Below the pieces are notes generated by a model. The model saw only the letters and a list, made by a program, of their open reading frames with translations. It was not told the origin of the DNA and ran no database searches. Below are positions 3,872 through 40,610 of a stretch of 64,000 nucleotides of DNA, piece by piece. The DNA comes from Pseudomonadota bacterium (GTDB taxonomy: Bacteria > Pseudomonadota > Gammaproteobacteria > Xanthomonadales > Ahniellaceae). The position numbers and the translations under genes are program-made. The stretch spans positions 380,134 through 444,133 of the forward strand of contig JALHNO010000001.1 of NCBI GenBank assembly GCA_022843465.1, given 5' to 3'. Numbering within the stretch: position 1 is the first letter of the stretch; every line of letters starts with the position of its first letter.

Positions 3872-5347
3872 CTACAGGCCGCCCGCAGCCTCGGCGACGG
3901 CACGAAACAAGGCGCGGCCCTTGTTCATGGTCTCTTTCCATTCCAGTTCGGGCACCGAATCGGCGACGACGCCGCCGGCGGCCTGTACATGCAGTTGACC
4001 ATCCTTGATCACGGCGGTGCGGATGGCGATGGCGAGATCGGCCTGATCGTCCCAGCCCCAGTAGCCGACGGCGCCGCCATACACGCCGCGTTTGACCGGT
4101 TCGAGTTCGGCGATCACTTCCATCGCGCGCACCTTGGGTGCGCCGGTCAGGGTGCCGGCCGGAAAGGTGGCGCGCAGCACATTCATGAAATTGATGCCGG
4201 GTTTGATCCGGCCGACCACTTCGCTGACGATATGCATCACATGCGAGTAACGCTCGATGATCATCTGCTCGGTGACCTGCACCGAGCCGGTCTCGCTGAT
4301 CCGGCCGACATCATTGCGGCCGAGATCGATCAGCATCAGATGCTCGGCACGCTCCTTGGGATCGGCGAGCAGTTCGGCTTCCATCGCGAGGTCTTCGGCA
4401 TCGCTGCGGCCGCGACGCCGGGTGCCGGCAATCGGCCGCACCACGACCTGGCCGCCCTGGGCGCGCACCAGGATCTCTGGAGACGAGCCGACAATCTGGG
4501 CATCGCCGAGATCGATGAAATACATGTACGGCGAGGGATTGAGTCCACGCAGCGCGCGATAGACATCGAGCGGGCGCGCACGATAGGGCACCGACAGGCG
4601 CTGACTGATCTGCACCTGGAAGACATCGCCGGCGAGCACATAGTCCTTGCCACGCGCGACTGCAGCGAGGTACTCGTCCTTGGGAAAGCTCGACACGAAA
4701 TGCGATTCGTCGATAGCGGTGCCATCAACGAGTTCCGGGTAGGCAGCGCCGGACTGGCGCAGCCGACGCGCGAGTGAGTCGAGTCTGCGCACGGCGCGTG
4801 GATAGGCACGCGGATCGGCAGGATCGGCATTGACGATCAGATAGAGCTTGCCGCGCAGATTGTCGAATACCGCCAGTTCCTCAGCAAGCATCAGGCAGAT
4901 GTCGGGCATGCCGAGGCGATCATCATTGTTGACTGCGGCGAGCTTGGGTTCGATATAGCGCGCGCACTCGTAGCCGAAATAACCCACCCAGCCGCCATGG
5001 AATTTGGGCAGACCATCGATTGCCGGCACCGAGTAGCGCGCCTTGATCCGCTCGAGTTCGGCGAGTGGGTCGGCTACCTCGCGCTCATTGACGATGACGC
5101 CTTCCTCTTCTTCGACCACACGATTGCCGAATACTTTCAGCACATGGCGCGCCGGCAGGCCGATGATGGAATGGCGACCCCAGCGTGAACCGCCCTCGAC
5201 CGACTCGAACAGATACGAGTACGGGCCATCGGCGAGCTTGAGAAAGACCGACAGCGGGGTATCGAGATCCGACAGCACCTCGCGCACGACCGGTATGCGG
5301 TTGTGACCGGCGGCGACATGGGCATCGAATTGGGCTTGACTGAGCAT
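3872..5347 (-). CDS. trpE: Anthranilate synthase component I
   Basis: 491 residues from the ATG at 5347, chosen because MLSQAQFDAHVAAG is the usual start of the family and GGA lies just upstream; an in-frame ATG at 5395 would add 16 residues. TrpE converts chorismate to anthranilate, using ammonia from the TrpG glutaminase. The chorismate-binding domain is intact: RPIAGTRRRG, LIDLGRNDVGRI and the signature FPAGTLTGAPKVRAME. The N-terminal FES motif matches the tryptophan feedback site. No trpG, trpD or trpC follows: a 99-bp gap leads into the oxidoreductase on the same strand, so the rest of the pathway must be elsewhere. No attenuator-like leader peptide was recognised upstream. Confidence 0.95.
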   Translation of the reverse strand: MLSQAQFDAHVAAGHNRIPVVREVLSDLDTPLSVFLKLADGPYSYLFESVEGGSRWGRHSIIGLPARHVLKVFGNRVVEEEEGVIVNEREVADPLAELERIKARYSVPAIDGLPKFHGGWVGYFGYECARYIEPKLAAVNNDDRLGMPDICLMLAEELAVFDNLRGKLYLIVNADPADPRAYPRAVRRLDSLARRLRQSGAAYPELVDGTAIDESHFVSSFPKDEYLAAVARGKDYVLAGDVFQVQISQRLSVPYRARPLDVYRALRGLNPSPYMYFIDLGDAQIVGSSPEILVRAQGGQVVVRPIAGTRRRGRSDAEDLAMEAELLADPKERAEHLMLIDLGRNDVGRISETGSVQVTEQMIIERYSHVMHIVSEVVGRIKPGINFMNVLRATFPAGTLTGAPKVRAMEVIAELEPVKRGVYGGAVGYWGWDDQADLAIAIRTAVIKDGQLHVQAAGGVVADSVPELEWKETMNKGRALFRAVAEAAGGL

Positions 5348-34156: not shown

Positions 34157-35035
34157 TCAGCAGACCACCACGCTGCCGGCATCGGGCCTGGGTTTGCGCA
34201 GCAATTCACCCGGTGCGTAGCCGCTGAAGGCGCGGAATTCGTTGATCAGATGTGACTGGTCGTAGTAACCGCAGTGATCGGCCAGTTCGGCCCAGGGCAC
34301 CTTGTCGCTGCGGCCAAGCAGATCCATGGCGCCACGAAAGCGATGGACGCGTGCCAATGCCTTGGCACTCATGCCGACCTGGCGCAGAAACAGCTGGCCG
34401 ATGTGCTTGCGGGTGAAGCCGGTCTCGCGCGCCAGCGTCGCGATCGGGATGCGGCCATTGCTCGCCGCGATGCGATCGACCGCCCAGCGCACGGCCGGAT
34501 GCACGATGCTCCTGGGCGACAGCCGTGCCAGCAGCCAGCGCTCGACGATGCAGAAACGGCTGGCAAAATCCGCTGTGTTGAGCAGTCGTTCGCGCAATTG
34601 CAGCGCGCCATCGCCGAGCGCATCGGCGAGGGCGATGATGCGATCGCTCAATCCTTCCAGTCGCTCGCCCAGCCAGGGATAGGCGCCGAGCGCGGAAAAT
34701 GCCACTCCGAGCAGCGCATTGCCTTGCGGTGCCTCGGTATCGATCGGGCCCTGATGCAGGCCGGCGTACCAGATGTCGCGGAACGGGACGTGGCGCTCGG
34801 GCGGCCCCGGTTCGATCCGGTATTGCGTCGGACCGAGATTGATCAGCAGCTGGCTCTGACCCGATGGCAGGATGCGATCACGCTGATAGCTGACCGAGCC
34901 CTCACCATACCAGAGCGTGCTGACGATGCCAGCCAGTCGTGGATCGCAACGCCACAATGAAACCTGCCAATCACCCAGTGGTGATTGGTGCACGAAGGTC
35001 TGCAGTCGGGTCTGCTCAGCGGGCAAGGCGGGCAT
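34157..35035 (-). CDS. AraC-family transcriptional regulator with DUF6597-like N-terminus
   Basis: 292 residues from the ATG at 35035. An N-terminal beta-barrel-like sensor (LAGIVSTLWYGEG...LPSGQSQLLINLGPTQYRI) precedes the AraC domain: RIPIATLARETGFTRKHIGQLFLRQVGMSAKALARVHRFRGAMDLL and the second helix-turn-helix ELADHCGYYDQSHLINEFRAFSGYAPGELL. Regulators of this type often sit next to the genes they control; the DUF1761/SRPBCC pair downstream is the obvious candidate, by position only. Confidence 0.88.
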   Translation of the reverse strand: MPALPAEQTRLQTFVHQSPLGDWQVSLWRCDPRLAGIVSTLWYGEGSVSYQRDRILPSGQSQLLINLGPTQYRIEPGPPERHVPFRDIWYAGLHQGPIDTEAPQGNALLGVAFSALGAYPWLGERLEGLSDRIIALADALGDGALQLRERLLNTADFASRFCIVERWLLARLSPRSIVHPAVRWAVDRIAASNGRIPIATLARETGFTRKHIGQLFLRQVGMSAKALARVHRFRGAMDLLGRSDKVPWAELADHCGYYDQSHLINEFRAFSGYAPGELLRKPRPDAGSVVVC

Positions 35036-35154
35036 CCTGCGCTGATCGCGGGCGCGATCGCCGGTGGCCGCAATATACCGCGTCAGTGCGCTCGATCGGC
35101 AAACCTGTCGTTGCGGTTGTGACGGCGCACTGCCCTGCGCCCGAGCGGCGACCA

Positions 35155-35607
35155 TCAACGGCAGCTTTCGGCGGATTCCTTCCAGACCACCGGCTCCCAG
35201 TAACCACCGCCACGGATATCCAGCCGCTTGCTGCGAATGAACTTCGCGGCAACCCGGTAGGTGATGCCGGGCTCGGCATCGATCTCGAGCGTCTTGTAGC
35301 GATTGCTGCGGCGGCCATCGCGGTCGCGTTGCTGCGCCGGGCTGAACTCGCGGGCGTCGATCGCCTCGGCCAGCTTGAGCACATGGCGTCCCGGTTCGAT
35401 GCGCCAGCTGGTCGAGTCCAATGGTCCCGGCATGCCGCCGTCGACGCCGATCAGGACCGCGCGGTGCAGATCCTGCTTGCGCGGGGCGATGTCGAAGGTG
35501 CTGATGCGCGCGCAGGTGTCGCTGGCCTGCGCCTGAGCCGGGGCGAGGCTCGCGCCGGCGCCGGTCAATGCCAACAGTACGCTGAGTACACAGGCTTGGG
35601 TTTTCAT
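35155..35607 (-). CDS. Secreted protein homologous to the C-terminal domain of the PDZ protein
   Basis: 150 residues from the ATG at 35607 with AAGGAG 8 bases upstream. Signal peptide about 1-28, ending PAQAQASD. After it the protein is one domain whose layout matches the last 125 residues of its neighbour: a first Cys in CARI (CGRI in the neighbour), a GGMPGPLDS region (GGPLNS-like), GRHVLKLAEAIDAREF, RYKTLEIDAEPGITYRVAAKFIR and YWEPVVWKESAESCR at the end, with the two Cys probably bridged. Function unknown. The last gene of the ECF operon. Confidence 0.8.
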   Translation of the reverse strand: MKTQACVLSVLLALTGAGASLAPAQAQASDTCARISTFDIAPRKQDLHRAVLIGVDGGMPGPLDSTSWRIEPGRHVLKLAEAIDAREFSPAQQRDRDGRRSNRYKTLEIDAEPGITYRVAAKFIRSKRLDIRGGGYWEPVVWKESAESCR

Positions 35608-35687
35608 GGTCTGTCTCCTTGCAGGGGTGTTGAATGGAGTGGCGTGGCGGGCGAATGCCTCGATGTGCGGCCGCTGAACACGCCGTG

Positions 35688-36566
35688 TCAGCGACAGCCT
35701 TCCTCGAATTCCTTCCAGATCACCGGCTCCCAGTACGACTGATCCTTCACCGAGCTGGCGCGGTCCTTGTGGAAACGCGCGCCGATCCGATAGGTCGTAT
35801 TGGCGGCAACTTCGATTTCCAGGATCTTGAAGCGCTCGTGGCGTTGCTGCTGCCGACGATGATTGCTGGCGGCGCCCCAGAAGCGGTCGTCGGGGATTTC
35901 CTCGCTGACCTTGATCAGGTGGCGGCCGGCGCTCAGGCGATAGACGCCATCCAGGCTGTTGAGCAAGGGGCCGCCGAGACGGCCATCGATGCTGTGCAGA
36001 AAGATCGGATAGATCGATTCGCTGACCGGAGGCTTCAGTGCCAGATTGATCCGCCCGCAACCGCCTGCTGCAGGCAGGGGCGAGATGCTGAGCCGATAGG
36101 CCGGCGTTTCCACGCGATCGAGTGCGCCGCTCAGGGTCAGCTGTTCGCCCCCGCGTTGCACCTGCAGGGCGAGCCTGCCGGCGTCGGCCTGCACGGCATC
36201 GTGCAATGTCTTGGCGCTGGCTTCCCCGGCGGTGAACTGGTGCCCATTGACCTGCATCAGGCGATCGCCGACGCGCAATTGCAGGCGTGCCGCCGCGCCG
36301 CCCGGCGTGATCGCCAGGATCTGTGGCAGGCCGCCATCGGCCGGCCGCGCGTCCACCACTGCGCCCAGTTCATGGCGCGCCTGTGCCGCGCGTTCGATGA
36401 CCAGGGGTGAGCCATCGGCGTTCGCCGGCGCAAACTCGGCGACCGCGCGCACCGCATCATCCAGCAGGACATCGGCTTCGGCTGCGCTCAGGTCGAGGGC
36501 GCCGAGCAACAGGCCAAGCGCGAGTCCGATACGAAGCGAGGTGTTACAGGCGGATGATGCGGTCAT
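35688..36566 (-). CDS. Secreted PDZ-domain protein of the ECF operon
   Basis: 292 residues from the ATG at 36566, with GGAG upstream; it overlaps the anti-sigma gene by 23 bp. Signal peptide about 1-28. A PDZ-like domain follows (ILAITPGGAAARLQLRVGDRLMQVNGHQF, about 77-105), then a C-terminal domain of about 125 residues shared with the next gene: CGRIN, GGPLLNSLDGVYRLSAGRHLIKV, FKILEIEVAANTTYRIGARF and QSYWEPVIWKEFEEGCR. No protease triad is seen, so the PDZ is probably a ligand-binding or regulatory part. Its place after the ECF sigma/anti-sigma pair suggests it is part of the same response. Confidence 0.82.
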   Translation of the reverse strand: MTASSACNTSLRIGLALGLLLGALDLSAAEADVLLDDAVRAVAEFAPANADGSPLVIERAAQARHELGAVVDARPADGGLPQILAITPGGAAARLQLRVGDRLMQVNGHQFTAGEASAKTLHDAVQADAGRLALQVQRGGEQLTLSGALDRVETPAYRLSISPLPAAGGCGRINLALKPPVSESIYPIFLHSIDGRLGGPLLNSLDGVYRLSAGRHLIKVSEEIPDDRFWGAASNHRRQQQRHERFKILEIEVAANTTYRIGARFHKDRASSVKDQSYWEPVIWKEFEEGCR

Positions 36567-36963
36567 CTTCAATACTCCGGGTTGCGGTGGTGCTGGTGGC
36601 ATGTTCGCGGGCCAGCCACAGGGCCTGGATCTGTTCGGGATCAGCGGCATGGTCATAGGCCGACTGCAATTGATGATCGATCGCGCGCAGATCGGGCTCG
36701 CTGGCCGGTGCTGTCGCCATTGCGGCGGTCGCTTGCGTGACCTGTGCGGGGTCCGGCATTGACAGCTTCAGCACAGCGATCATGGCGACAGCGGCCACCG
36801 CGCCCGTCGCCGCCCATTGCCGGCGCAGTCGGCGCCGCTGGCGGGTGCGCTCGATTCTCGACCACAGCGCCGTAGATGCCTCGGGGATCGGCAGTCCGGC
36901 AAGATGGATACGCAGCGGATCGCGCTGGGCAAGGACTTCACTTTGGTCGACCGGGATATTCAT
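36544..36963 (-). CDS. Single-pass anti-sigma-like protein
   Basis: 139 residues: a cytoplasmic N-terminus of about 50 residues rich in Arg (LWSRIERTRQRRRLRRQW), one membrane segment (WAATGAVAAVAMIAVLKLSM) and an extracytoplasmic tail of about 65 residues (ATAPASEPDLRAIDHQLQSAYDHAADP...). No zinc-type HxxxCxxC motif is present, so it is not a ZAS anti-sigma, but size, topology and position next to an ECF gene support the call. The start codon directly follows the sigma gene's stop. Confidence 0.68.
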   Translation of the reverse strand: MNIPVDQSEVLAQRDPLRIHLAGLPIPEASTALWSRIERTRQRRRLRRQWAATGAVAAVAMIAVLKLSMPDPAQVTQATAAMATAPASEPDLRAIDHQLQSAYDHAADPEQIQALWLAREHATSTTATRSIEDDRIIRL

Positions 36964-37518
36964 TCACGCGGACTCCTGCTGGATCTCTCGGCGCAGACGC
37001 TCGAGGCTGCGCGCGAGTATCGACTTGGACCAACTCTCGGTCTGGCCGTAAAGACGGGCGATCTCGCCATGGGCATAACCTTCCATCTCGTGCAGCCAGA
37101 CCACCGAACGCGCCCTGGGCGCCAGTCGGGCGAGCAGGCCCAGGGCTTCGATCTGATCGGTCTGATGTCCGGATGGCGCGGGCAGGGCGTCGATGGCATC
37201 GGCATCCGCCGACCAGCGCGTCTCGGCGCGCAGTCGATCGATGCACTGGTTGACCAGCATGCGCTTGAGCCAGATACCGAAGGGCGCGTCGCCGCGGTAG
37301 TGATGGATTTTCTCGAAGGCGCGTACGAAGCAATCATGGACGGCGTCTTCTGCCGCCGCATGACGACCGAGTATGCGCAGCGCCAGAGCCAGGCCCGCTT
37401 GTGCGTAGCAGTCGTAGATCGCTGCAAAGGCGGCGCGGTCGTTGCGCTGCGCGCGGGCCAGGATGGCGGCGTCGAGTTCGGTGCTGAATCCGGTTTCATT
37501 GTGCATCGCTGATTTCAA
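36964..37518 (-). CDS. ECF-family RNA polymerase sigma factor
   Basis: 184 residues; a start at the second Met (MHNETG) is possible. Region 2 reads RNDRAAFAAIYDCYAQAGLALALRILGRHAAAEDAVHDCFVRAFEKIHHYRGDAPFGIWLKRMLVNQCIDRLRAE and region 4 HEMEGYAHGEIARLYGQTESWSKSILARSLERLRRE. It heads a four-gene operon: sigma, anti-sigma-like protein, PDZ protein, paralogous secreted protein. It is divergent from oleC; the 212-bp gap holds a CCGGAACGCTCCGG palindrome that includes a GGAAC ECF-like -35 element, but no convincing -10. Confidence 0.92.
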   Translation of the reverse strand: MKSAMHNETGFSTELDAAILARAQRNDRAAFAAIYDCYAQAGLALALRILGRHAAAEDAVHDCFVRAFEKIHHYRGDAPFGIWLKRMLVNQCIDRLRAETRWSADADAIDALPAPSGHQTDQIEALGLLARLAPRARSVVWLHEMEGYAHGEIARLYGQTESWSKSILARSLERLRREIQQESA

Positions 37519-37730
37519 CTGGGCTTATCGGAACGGACGAACCAGGAGGACGGATCGTTGCAGGTTGCGCTCGACAGTCGAAGTTTCACCGGAGCGTTCC
37601 GGTAGCCCCTAGGACTTCTGGGCAGCGGACCCGGGGCCGAATGCGCCGGGTTGGCGACGTTTTGTCACGTTGCCTGCACATCGCCGTCGCTGGACTCGCC
37701 ATTCCAGCCTAGGCAAGCCACAATTGCTGC

Positions 37731-39389
37731 ATGACGGAATTCTGCAATATCGCCAGCCACCTCGGCGAGGAGGCCAGTCGCCAGCCCGATCGGCCGGCCA
37801 TCCATTGTCCCGTGCGCTTCGGCGGCAAGGGCATGCCCCAGTATCGGAGCATGAACTTTGCCGAACTCGCCGCCGAGACCGATCTGATCGCGGCCGGACT
37901 GGTCGCCAGCGGCATCGGCCGCGGCGTGCGGACGGCGCTGATGGTGCGTCCCTCGATCGAATTGTTCGTGCTGATGTTTGCCTTGTTCAAGGCTGGCGCG
38001 GTGCCGGTGCTGATCGACCCGGGGATCAATCGCCGTCAGCTCAAACAGTGCCTGAAGGAAGCCGCACCGGAAGCCTTCATCGGCGTGCCGCTGGCGCAGG
38101 CCGCGAGTGTGCTGCTGGGCTGGGCACGTGGCAGCATACGGCGCCGGGTCACCGTCAATGGCCGGCGCTGGCTCTGGGGCGGCCGTACCTATGCCGGCGT
38201 GCGTGCGCTCGGCGCCCGTCAGCCGGCGTTCCGGATTGCCGATACCCGTCAGGCCGAACTGGCTGCCATCCTGTTCACCAGCGGTGCCACCGGAGTCCCC
38301 AAGGGCGTCGAGTACACCCATGGCCAGTTCGCCGCCCAGGTTGATCTGATCCGCAGTGCCTTCGGCATCTGGCCCGGCGAGGTCGATCTGCCGACCTTTC
38401 CACCGTTCGCCCTGTTCGATCCGGCCCTGGGCATGACCAGTGTGATTCCGGACATGGACCCCACGCGTCCGGCACAGGCCGATCCGGCCAAGCTGGTCGC
38501 AGCCATCGAACGCAATGGCGTCACCACGATGTTTGGTTCGCCTGCCCTGATCGATGTGCTGGCGCGCTACGGCGAGGCCAATGGCATCAAGCTCAATACC
38601 CTGCGCCGGGTCATCTCCGCAGGGGCACCGGTGCCCCCGGAGACCGTGGCCCGGCTGATGAAGGTGCTCAAGCCCAAGGCCCAGGTGTTCACTCCCTATG
38701 GTGCGACCGAGTGTCTGCCGGTGTGCGCGATCGACGGCCGCGAGATTCTTGCGGTCTCGCATCTGACCGCCGAGGGCGCGGGTATCTGTGTCGGCACTCC
38801 GCTGCCGGAAAATTCCGTGCAACTGATCCGCATCGATGACAGCGAAGTGCACGAGATCAGTTTCGCAAATCGGGTGCCGCCCGGTGGGGTCGGCGAAATC
38901 GTCGTGCGTGGGCCCAGCATGAGTCAGCGCTACTACGGTCGACCCGAGGCCAACCGCCTCGGCAAGATCCTGACCCACGAGGGCATCTGGCATCGCATGG
39001 GCGATCTCGGCCGCTTCGATGCCGATGGTCGGCTCTGGTACCTCGGCCGCAAGGCGCACCGGGTCGAAACCGGCAATGGCCAGTTTCTGCCGGAGCCGGT
39101 GGAAGGCATCTTCAATGCCCACCCCGCGGTGCGGCGCAGCGCCCTGGTTGCCCTGGTCGATCGTGACGGCCGCCGCATGGCCGGCGTCTGCGTTGAATTG
39201 CGCCAGAACACAAGTGCCGGCGACTGGACGCCGATCCGCAACGAACTGCGCCAGATTGGCGCACGCCACGCGATCACCTCGGCGATCCGGCATTTCTTTC
39301 TGCATCCAGGCTTTCCGGTTGATATCCGCCACAACGCCAAGATCGATCGCCAGGCGCTCACCGTCTGGGCGCAGCGCAAGCAGATCTGA
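37731..39389 (+). CDS. oleC: OleC, beta-lactone synthetase (AMP-forming ligase family)
   Basis: 552 residues. Acyl-CoA-synthetase fold: AILFTSGATGVPKGVEYTHGQF (P-loop), FTPYGATECLPVCA (A5-type motif), RMGDLGRFDADGRLWYLGRKAHRV (A7-A8). OleC turns 2-alkyl-3-hydroxyalkanoates into cis-beta-lactones, the third step of long-chain olefin synthesis. The gene is followed 213 bp later by oleD on the same strand. Neither OleA (thiolase-like) nor OleB (hydrolase) precedes or follows it here, although the adjacent hydrolase gene at 40734 should be compared with OleB. Confidence 0.9.
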   Translation: MTEFCNIASHLGEEASRQPDRPAIHCPVRFGGKGMPQYRSMNFAELAAETDLIAAGLVASGIGRGVRTALMVRPSIELFVLMFALFKAGAVPVLIDPGINRRQLKQCLKEAAPEAFIGVPLAQAASVLLGWARGSIRRRVTVNGRRWLWGGRTYAGVRALGARQPAFRIADTRQAELAAILFTSGATGVPKGVEYTHGQFAAQVDLIRSAFGIWPGEVDLPTFPPFALFDPALGMTSVIPDMDPTRPAQADPAKLVAAIERNGVTTMFGSPALIDVLARYGEANGIKLNTLRRVISAGAPVPPETVARLMKVLKPKAQVFTPYGATECLPVCAIDGREILAVSHLTAEGAGICVGTPLPENSVQLIRIDDSEVHEISFANRVPPGGVGEIVVRGPSMSQRYYGRPEANRLGKILTHEGIWHRMGDLGRFDADGRLWYLGRKAHRVETGNGQFLPEPVEGIFNAHPAVRRSALVALVDRDGRRMAGVCVELRQNTSAGDWTPIRNELRQIGARHAITSAIRHFFLHPGFPVDIRHNAKIDRQALTVWAQRKQI

Positions 39390-39602: not shown

Positions 39603-40610
39603 ATGAAAGTACTGGTCACTGGCGGCGGCGGATTTCTCGGCGCGCAGATCTGCAAGCAATTGCGTTTTCGCGGCCATGAGGTCGTCAGCATCGCGCGCAA
39701 CAAGTATCCGGCACTGGAACAGCTCGATATCCGTCAGGTCGTTGGCGATGTCAGCGCCTTCGATCCGATGCTCAATGCCAGCAAGGGCTGCGATGCGGTG
39801 ATCCATACCGCGGCGCGCGCCGGCATCGGCGGCAGCCTGGCCGAGTATTCCAGCACCAATATCGGCGGCACGGTCGCCGTACTTGGCGCCTGTGAAATGA
39901 ATGGCGTCGGCAAGATCGTCTACACCTCGACACCCAGTGTGGTGCATACCGGCGAAGACATCGAGAATGGCGATGAGTCGATGCCGCATGCGACCCGGTT
40001 TCACGCCCACTATCCCGCCACCAAGGCGGCGGCCGAGCGTCAGATCCTGGCTGCCAATGGTCCCAACCTGGCGACGGTCGCGCTGCGCCCGCACCTGATC
40101 TGGGGTCCCGGCGACAATCATCTGCTGCCGCGGCTGGTACAGCGCGCGCGCGCCGGCAAGCTGCGCTTCGTCGGTCCCTCGAAGAAAATCGACACGGTGT
40201 ACATCGACAATGCCGTGCAGGCGCATCTCGATGCCCTCGATCGGCTCGAGGTCGGCGCGCCCTGTGCCGGCAAGGCCTACTTCATTTCCCAGGGCCAGCC
40301 GATCGCGCTCGATGAAATGGTCAACAAGCTGTTGAAGGCCGCGGGCATGCCAGCAGAAACACGACGGGTTTCGGTCACCATGGCCAGGACCATGGGCTTT
40401 CTGTTCGAGCACTGGTACCAGCTCACCGGCAATCGCGGTGAGCCGCCGATGACACGCTTCCTTGCCGAGCAACTGTCGACGGCGCACTGGTTCAATATCG
40501 GCGCCGCCCGTCGCGACCTCGGCTACCAGCCCAAGGTCACCCTGATCGAGGGCATGGTGCGGGTCAGCGAGTGGTGGCTGCGCGAGGGCAAGTTCAAGTA
40601 CGCCCCGTGA
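39603..40610 (+). CDS. oleD: OleD, 2-alkyl-3-oxoalkanoate reductase
   Basis: 335 residues, extended short-chain dehydrogenase fold. NADP-binding VLVTGGGGFLGAQICKQL, catalytic tyrosine and lysine in HYPATKAAAE, with the serine in TSTPSVVHTG. It reduces 2-alkyl-3-ketoalkanoates to the hydroxy acids that OleC activates. The chromosomal oleC-oleD pair is what identifies it; on its own it would be called an SDR family epimerase/reductase. Confidence 0.9.
   Translation: MKVLVTGGGGFLGAQICKQLRFRGHEVVSIARNKYPALEQLDIRQVVGDVSAFDPMLNASKGCDAVIHTAARAGIGGSLAEYSSTNIGGTVAVLGACEMNGVGKIVYTSTPSVVHTGEDIENGDESMPHATRFHAHYPATKAAAERQILAANGPNLATVALRPHLIWGPGDNHLLPRLVQRARAGKLRFVGPSKKIDTVYIDNAVQAHLDALDRLEVGAPCAGKAYFISQGQPIALDEMVNKLLKAAGMPAETRRVSVTMARTMGFLFEHWYQLTGNRGEPPMTRFLAEQLSTAHWFNIGAARRDLGYQPKVTLIEGMVRVSEWWLREGKFKYAP

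Follow-up and report, generated by a model that had tools for sequence, protein, structure and literature searches.

The operon and its closest described counterparts

Among described systems, those closest to the locus reported here are RpoE-RseA-RseB of E. coli and AlgU-MucA-MucB of Pseudomonas, in which an extracytoplasmic function (ECF) sigma factor, a one-pass anti-sigma factor and a secreted periplasmic partner are encoded in the same order. According to PMC7400510, the secreted partner (RseB or MucB) shields the anti-sigma factor (RseA or MucA) and responds to lipids, MucB being described with a redox-relevant disulfide and lipid sensing, and this partner holds RseA or MucA through a helix contact and not through a PDZ domain and a C-terminus. 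A second likeness is to the HtrA-type stress-sensor proteases DegS and AlgW, whose periplasmic PDZ domain, of the same fold as the one found here, reads C-terminal peptides. The subject of this work is a four-gene operon on the minus strand of a 64,000-nt stretch (hereafter, the window) of the Pseudomonadota bacterium assembly GCA_022843465.1 (contig JALHNO010000001.1, positions 380,134 to 444,133), with its genes arranged head to tail: first that of an ECF sigma factor, then those of a one-pass membrane protein, of a secreted protein with a PDZ domain followed by a domain here named X (PDZ-X) and of a secreted protein with the X domain alone (X-only). From its sequence, this operon is somewhat more probably than otherwise an autoregulated ECF/anti-sigma switch, in which an RseB-like co-regulator docks by its PDZ domain on the tail of the anti-sigma factor, and such a PDZ domain on an anti-sigma factor's own C-terminus would be a new kind of contact.

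The sigma gene (36964..37506) encodes 180 aa from an ATG start at 37506, the boundary at 37518 in the original prediction being an upstream TTG in the same reading frame. Its product is an ECF sigma factor as judged by profile matches in which regions 2 and 4 exceeded the curated cut-offs: Sigma70_r2 (E=1.6e-14, 53.9 bits, Pfam cut-off 24), Sigma70_r4_2 (E=2.7e-7, 30.6 bits, Pfam cut-off 25.7) and NCBIfam TIGR02937 (E=1e-17, 64.3 bits, cut-off 42.9). The one-pass gene (36544..36963, 139 aa) directly adjoins the sigma gene, and its product, with a single hydrophobic stretch at about residues 50-67 (read by eye), is a putative anti-sigma factor by position and topology. The PDZ-X gene (35688..36566, 292 aa) overlaps the one-pass gene by 23 nt and is separated by 80 nt from the X-only gene (35155..35607, 150 aa), both of them starting with a signal peptide recognized by eye. 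A simple scan of 34900-37800 gave no sigma-70-like promoter; of its two terminator-like sites, which were plus-strand sites, neither fell within the gap between the PDZ-X and X-only genes. Having found no sign of separate transcripts there, we retain the earlier proposal of four minus-strand genes in one probable operon, and its reading of sigma factor and one-pass membrane protein as partners, next to secreted proteins with a family-less domain, is supported; the order sigma/one-pass/PDZ-X recurs in relatives. Two features beyond the original prediction, the PDZ-ligand-like C-terminus of the one-pass protein and the conserved promoter, suggest a mechanism.

In the mechanism proposed, the one-pass protein would use its cytoplasmic N-terminal part to keep the sigma factor bound to the inner membrane. 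At the far end of its periplasmic part, a flexible stretch would lead to a free, hydrophobic C-terminus, which is I-I-R-L here and T-R-I in many relatives. The secreted PDZ-X protein would grip this C-terminus with its PDZ domain, thereby placing the X domain, a predicted beta-sandwich, on the anti-sigma factor, where it would serve as a co-regulator that senses a ligand or damage. PDZ-X may thus sit on the anti-sigma factor with X as the sensor, much as the shielding partners RseB and MucB do on RseA and MucA. A signal at X might then loosen or alter the complex, after which the anti-sigma factor would either undergo cleavage or release the sigma factor. Once free, the latter would drive transcription of its own operon at a TGCAACG-N16-CGTC site, yielding more of all four proteins, and the X-only protein may act as a soluble decoy, partner or effector unable to dock. 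The sequence itself shows the gene order, the conserved tails, the PDZ domain including the glycine of its carboxylate loop, the X domain and the promoter motif, from which we infer the anti-sigma function, the binding of the tail by PDZ, sensing through X and the direction of control.

Gene linkage, the one-pass tail and the PDZ domain

A one-genome-per-species scan for the X domain gave 35 loci. Among 398 genomes of the order, 97 had matches, and the locus counts cover 60 of these, the other 37 having no match with E below 1.4e-11. The linkage sample comprised 92 sequences, namely 89 loci (L054-L142), L004, L005 and the window. Once six duplicate loci were dropped (L078, L079, L089, L101, L092 and L095), it presented 102 X genes, 72 of them PDZ-X and 30 X-only. 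A total of 69 PDZ-X genes followed sigma and one-pass genes, and the remaining three, near contig starts, followed a one-pass gene, so that none of the 72 was apart from a one-pass gene in the X-bearing loci examined, while 14 X-only genes were linked to sigma and one-pass genes and 16 were not. As the loci had been picked by the X domain and not by the sigma factor, the sigma linkage was not built in. Furthermore, 27 of the 35 loci of the one-genome-per-species scan had a sigma gene upstream, and in all 27 an open reading frame of one-pass size lay between sigma and PDZ-X, its start overlapping or touching the sigma gene. Among the eight other loci, X lay close to the start of the contig in three (L056, L075 and L079), and five (L069, L071, L084, L086 and L087) were X-only genes standing alone. 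The named sources of X included Lysobacter, Dokdonella, Tahibacter, Chiayiivirga, Pseudomarimonas, Pseudidiomarina, Kangiella, Glaciecola, Ningiella, Arsukibacterium and Shewanella, and the order sigma/one-pass/PDZ-X recurred in Lysobacterales, Pseudidiomarina, Kangiella, Glaciecola, Ningiella and Arsukibacterium.

The C-termini of the one-pass proteins were compared in 70 distinct operons (the first four duplicates named above having been dropped, as also in the glycine and promoter counts), 65 of which had a PDZ domain in their first X gene. The last residue was I, L or V in 49 of these 65 operons, often within T-R-I, and Met in one; the window protein ends in I-I-R-L (codons at 36547..36558), its proposed PDZ ligand. 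The pattern [ST]-x-hydrophobic appeared in 22 tails and hydrophobic-x-hydrophobic in 20. As controls, C-termini with I, L or V were found in four of 67 sigma factors and three of 70 X proteins. Moreover, the last residue was the least variable among the last 12 of the one-pass protein, and the end was conserved in the 49 operons although the distance from the LW..R motif to the C-terminus ranged from 14 to 32 residues. Fisher's test on the tail counts gave 2e-17 for sequences that are related and not independent; because of this kinship, more weight was given to clustering at 45% identity, where I, L or V was the majority in 28 of 35 clusters. A C-terminus of this kind matches that of a PDZ ligand.

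The PDZ domain of the window protein (36108..36404, about residues 55-153) matched PDZ_6 with E=5e-6 and 26.6 bits, 0.4 under the Pfam cut-off of 27, and 30 of 31 family members matched this model at E<=0.05 (best 3.2e-9). In the predicted model of PDZ-X (mean predicted local distance difference test score, pLDDT, 84.1), VIA-align superposed the domain on the peptide-bound HtrA2 PDZ domain 2pzd_A with Z 14.2 and a root-mean-square deviation (rmsd) of 1.7 over 84 residues. The top structural matches were the PDZ domains of HtrA2, HtrA3 and DegS, several of them solved with C-terminal peptides, which were phage-derived for HtrA2 and HtrA3 and YQF for DegS. The PDZ-like domain originally placed before the shared domain in one of the two secreted proteins was therefore confirmed, as the assignment, weak by one Pfam model, is certain from the relatives and the predicted structure taken together. 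The glycine of the carboxylate loop, glycine 68 in the window protein, was kept in 67 of 70 PDZ domains, including all 53 whose one-pass partner ends in I, L, V or M. It was replaced by Asp in three of the 17 domains whose partner ends otherwise (L073, L076 and L102), these being three of the five Lysobacter-type operons (with L096 and L111) whose tail ends in none of I, L and V.

Beyond the PDZ domain, PDZ-X differs from its counterparts. No trypsin-like protease domain was found in its 292 residues, for which Pfam gave PDZ and two insignificant matches, so that PDZ-X, unlike DegS and AlgW, is free of a protease domain, and it would bind the anti-sigma factor itself in place of a misfolded outer-membrane protein. 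Neither did the RseB/MucB family appear among its Pfam and NCBIfam matches up to E=1; RseB-like chains were also absent from the fold comparison, in which PDZ chains filled the match list, making it uninformative on RseB. A survey of microbial PDZ proteins assigned 93% of them to 12 families and left 7% unclassified, and the PDZ-X architecture was not seen among these 12 families in the accessible part of that source (PMC6411480). Similarly, no such system was recognized in the portions available of the openly licensed PMC literature on ECF sigma factors, anti-sigma factors and PDZ domains, and the terms ‘PDZ-binding motif’ and ‘anti-sigma factor’ together gave nothing in the openly licensed PMC literature.

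The hydrophobic tail could also be a recognition signal addressed to proteases of the cell itself (RseP, DegS or AlgW type), whose PDZ domains would read it. The one-pass protein would then be a ready-made proteolysis substrate, and PDZ-X would shield the tail or be an unrelated periplasmic chaperone. RseP favours a hydrophobic new C-terminus of RseA. In addition, the PDZ pair of RseP filters substrates according to PMC7728848, and hydrophobic C-termini are read by HtrA-type PDZ domains, as described in PMC8103513 and in line with the structural matches above. However, the tails differ within one genome. On contig C6 of the window's own genome, a sister operon (L015) presents sigma and one-pass genes followed by the gene of a tandem-PDZ protein; further operons of this kind are L006-L010, L013 and L014. 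It is like the window operon in its gene order, ECF sigma factor, one-pass protein with a conserved C-terminus and PDZ protein, and differs in having two PDZ domains, no X domain and tails ending in N or D. The form Y/W-x-I/L-N/D was found in six of the seven sister tails examined (own genome and five relatives; L010 being the exception), with Y-P-I-N in the own genome, and A-L-A-A is the end of the one-pass protein in a third sigma operon of this genome, after which no PDZ gene follows within the 3.5 kb covered. Tail type thus seems to track the neighbouring PDZ gene and not a shared protease, each PDZ type having its own tail, which favours docking on the neighbour. Together with the finding that no PDZ-X gene among 72 lay away from a one-pass gene, this makes recognition by the cell's proteases an unlikely account.

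As to docking on the neighbouring PDZ protein, a more general form can be put forward with about even chances of being right: these operons would define a class of anti-sigma factors with a built-in C-terminal PDZ ligand, read by a co-encoded, protease-free PDZ protein carrying the sensor X, as a plug-and-socket mode of transmembrane signalling in Lysobacterales and marine Gammaproteobacteria, with sister systems using another tail and another PDZ domain. If true, this would be a second way of coupling a periplasmic sensor to an anti-sigma factor, via a short tail readable from the sequence, so that partner pairs would be predictable from genomes and the signalling contact would be open to a simple peptide assay. 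It would also provide the first role for the X domain, which is found in many Gammaproteobacteria and reached no Pfam or NCBIfam cut-off here.

The X domain and its copies

The X domain of PDZ-X (35691..36068, about residues 167-292) and that of the X-only protein were 35% identical over 127 residues by BLASTP (E=2e-25, in a single comparison). An alignment of 34 rows, taken from the window and 24 loci, had two invariant Cys, located at opposite ends of the domain; W.P..W within the YWEPVVWK motif was invariant too, and the remaining positions of this motif were nearly so. The shared C-terminal domain with two conserved Cys and a YWEPV-WKE-type ending in the original prediction was hence well described, and the two Cys probably form a disulfide. 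Likewise, its failure to place this domain in a named family was borne out, since X reached no Pfam, NCBIfam or PHROGs family at significance; DUF2846 (PF11008) was matched weakly by two of 34 members (best E=0.016, below significance) and by none of the other 32, and no PDB sequence was hit at E<=1 with a 34-member profile.

The AlphaFold2 model of the X-only protein was a confidently predicted beta-sandwich (mean pLDDT 86.8, predicted template modelling score, pTM, 0.74). Foldseek gave no PDB match for this fold at E<=0.001. With VIA-align, the best match was HGSNAT (8jl4_A, Z 5.7, rmsd 3.6, 88 residues aligned), followed by the N-domain of AlgF (6czt, Z 5.0, rmsd 3.3, 75 residues aligned), the PepT1 ectodomain and transthyretin (Z about 4 to 4.8). 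The predicted fold would thus be a common beta-sandwich, for which such middling structural matches name no relative.

The number of X copies was variable. In the window, L054, L055, L056 and L074, an X-only gene comes after the PDZ-X gene. The paired sensors or effectors suggested earlier hence need refining, a single PDZ-X gene being constant and a second X gene present in only some operons. The window X-only protein was 59%, 57% and 53% identical to the products of the second X genes of L054, L055 and L056, respectively, and 60% identical to the X domain of the L062 PDZ-X protein, compared with 33% to the X domain of its own neighbour, indicating that the pair of X domains predates these lineages and that the copies diverged separately. 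In L098, L100, L103, L107 and L108, from genomes belonging to one family, an X-only gene came directly after the one-pass gene and was followed by more X genes, PDZ-X included, with two to four X copies in a row.

A different role for both secreted proteins would be that of mere outputs of the sigma factor, that is, stress-made periplasmic binding or quality-control proteins taking no part in sensing. Their genes do lie downstream of those of the sigma factor and its partner in one apparent operon, and the 16 of 30 X-only genes standing alone indicate that X is able to work without the switch. Nevertheless, neither the tight linkage of PDZ to the switch nor the matching tails would be expected for a mere output, and this role is judged rather improbable. 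Among the solitary genes, those of Shewanella (L084 and L086, gene near 3914-4354) encode a small X protein with a lipoprotein-like start (by eye). The genes flanking six solitary X-only genes had no common theme visible; a gene that we take by eye for pdxJ lies near both L004 (operon in G007) and L119 (solitary X gene in G374).

The promoter motif, contrary evidence and the neighbouring genes

A word-pair scan of 66 regions upstream of the sigma gene found GACG-N16-CGTC and its neighbours in 31 of them, and no pair in more than 11 in three shuffles. A motif of the type TGC[G/A]ACG-N16-CGT[C/A], written after inspection of the same 66 sequences in which it was counted, was present in 40 operons, 39 of them with the exact 16-nt spacing, compared to 1.0 on average and never more than 5 when two-base blocks were shuffled 200 times. 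In the window, the predicted promoter TGCAACG-N16-CGTC (37536..37562, minus strand) ends 29 nt before the sigma ATG and is the only match to the motif in 64 kb (0.22 expected). This conserved motif upstream of the sigma gene suggests that the operon is activated by its own sigma factor. Simple ECF promoter forms (AAC-N-CGT and similar) were not above shuffles. The motif was absent within 500 nt upstream of all 16 solitary X-only genes and upstream of the sister sigma genes L018 and L019. A regulon candidate (C1:264918-265517), encoding a secreted protein that we presume to be DUF922-like and with one of the 11 genome matches given below 33 nt before it, was discarded, as its homologues in seven other genomes (eight places, L155-L162) all lacked the motif.

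Several observations weigh against the proposed switch. As for the promoter, 26 of the 66 upstream regions lacked the motif as first written; a CGCGAC form with the same spacing appeared in eight of them, and neither form in 18, chiefly of marine genera. Nor was a wider regulon detectable, the promoter pattern showing no enrichment over its reversed control in the window genome (11 matches vs. 29) or in six relatives (82 vs. 167), and the periplasmic stress response read into the operon earlier would thus be conjectural. As for the tail, the kinship of the sequences makes its counts non-independent, the three losses of the loop glycine may be a single event, and 16 of the 65 operons had no I, L or V at the end. 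Ten of these were of Pseudidiomarina/Idiomarina type (one being a gammaproteobacterial metagenome-assembled genome), with intact-looking PDZ domains that keep the glycine, and are left unexplained by the model, as in them the contact must differ or the tail not be needed.

The last of these points concerns the one-pass protein of the window, which reached only E=0.58 with the NCBIfam anti-sigma model NF052375, no anti-sigma family matching better, and lacks H-x3-C-x2-C, presumably the motif of zinc anti-sigma factors (ZAS class). It might therefore be a membrane anchor for PDZ-X and not an anti-sigma factor, the sigma factor being controlled otherwise. Against such an anchor, two relatives matched NF052375, although under its curated cut-off (L066, E=4.7e-6; L080, E=0.0022), and H-x3-C-x2-C was present near the N-terminus of the one-pass proteins of L066 and L083, for which Pfam gave no zinc anti-sigma match and, in the case of L083, NF052375 gave none either. 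With the start of the one-pass gene also overlapping or touching the sigma gene in 27 loci, the anchor is considered highly improbable.

Finally, the genes around the operon were inspected. Divergent from it on the plus strand are an OleC-like olefin beta-lactone synthetase gene (37731-39389, NF045786, E=1.7e-221) and a 2-alkyl-3-oxoalkanoate reductase (OleD) gene (39603-40610, NF042422, E=4.6e-133), both matches being under the equivalog cut-offs. Downstream of the operon, the minus strand carries at 34157-35158 the gene of an AraC-type regulator, the N-terminal part of which is a DUF6597 domain.

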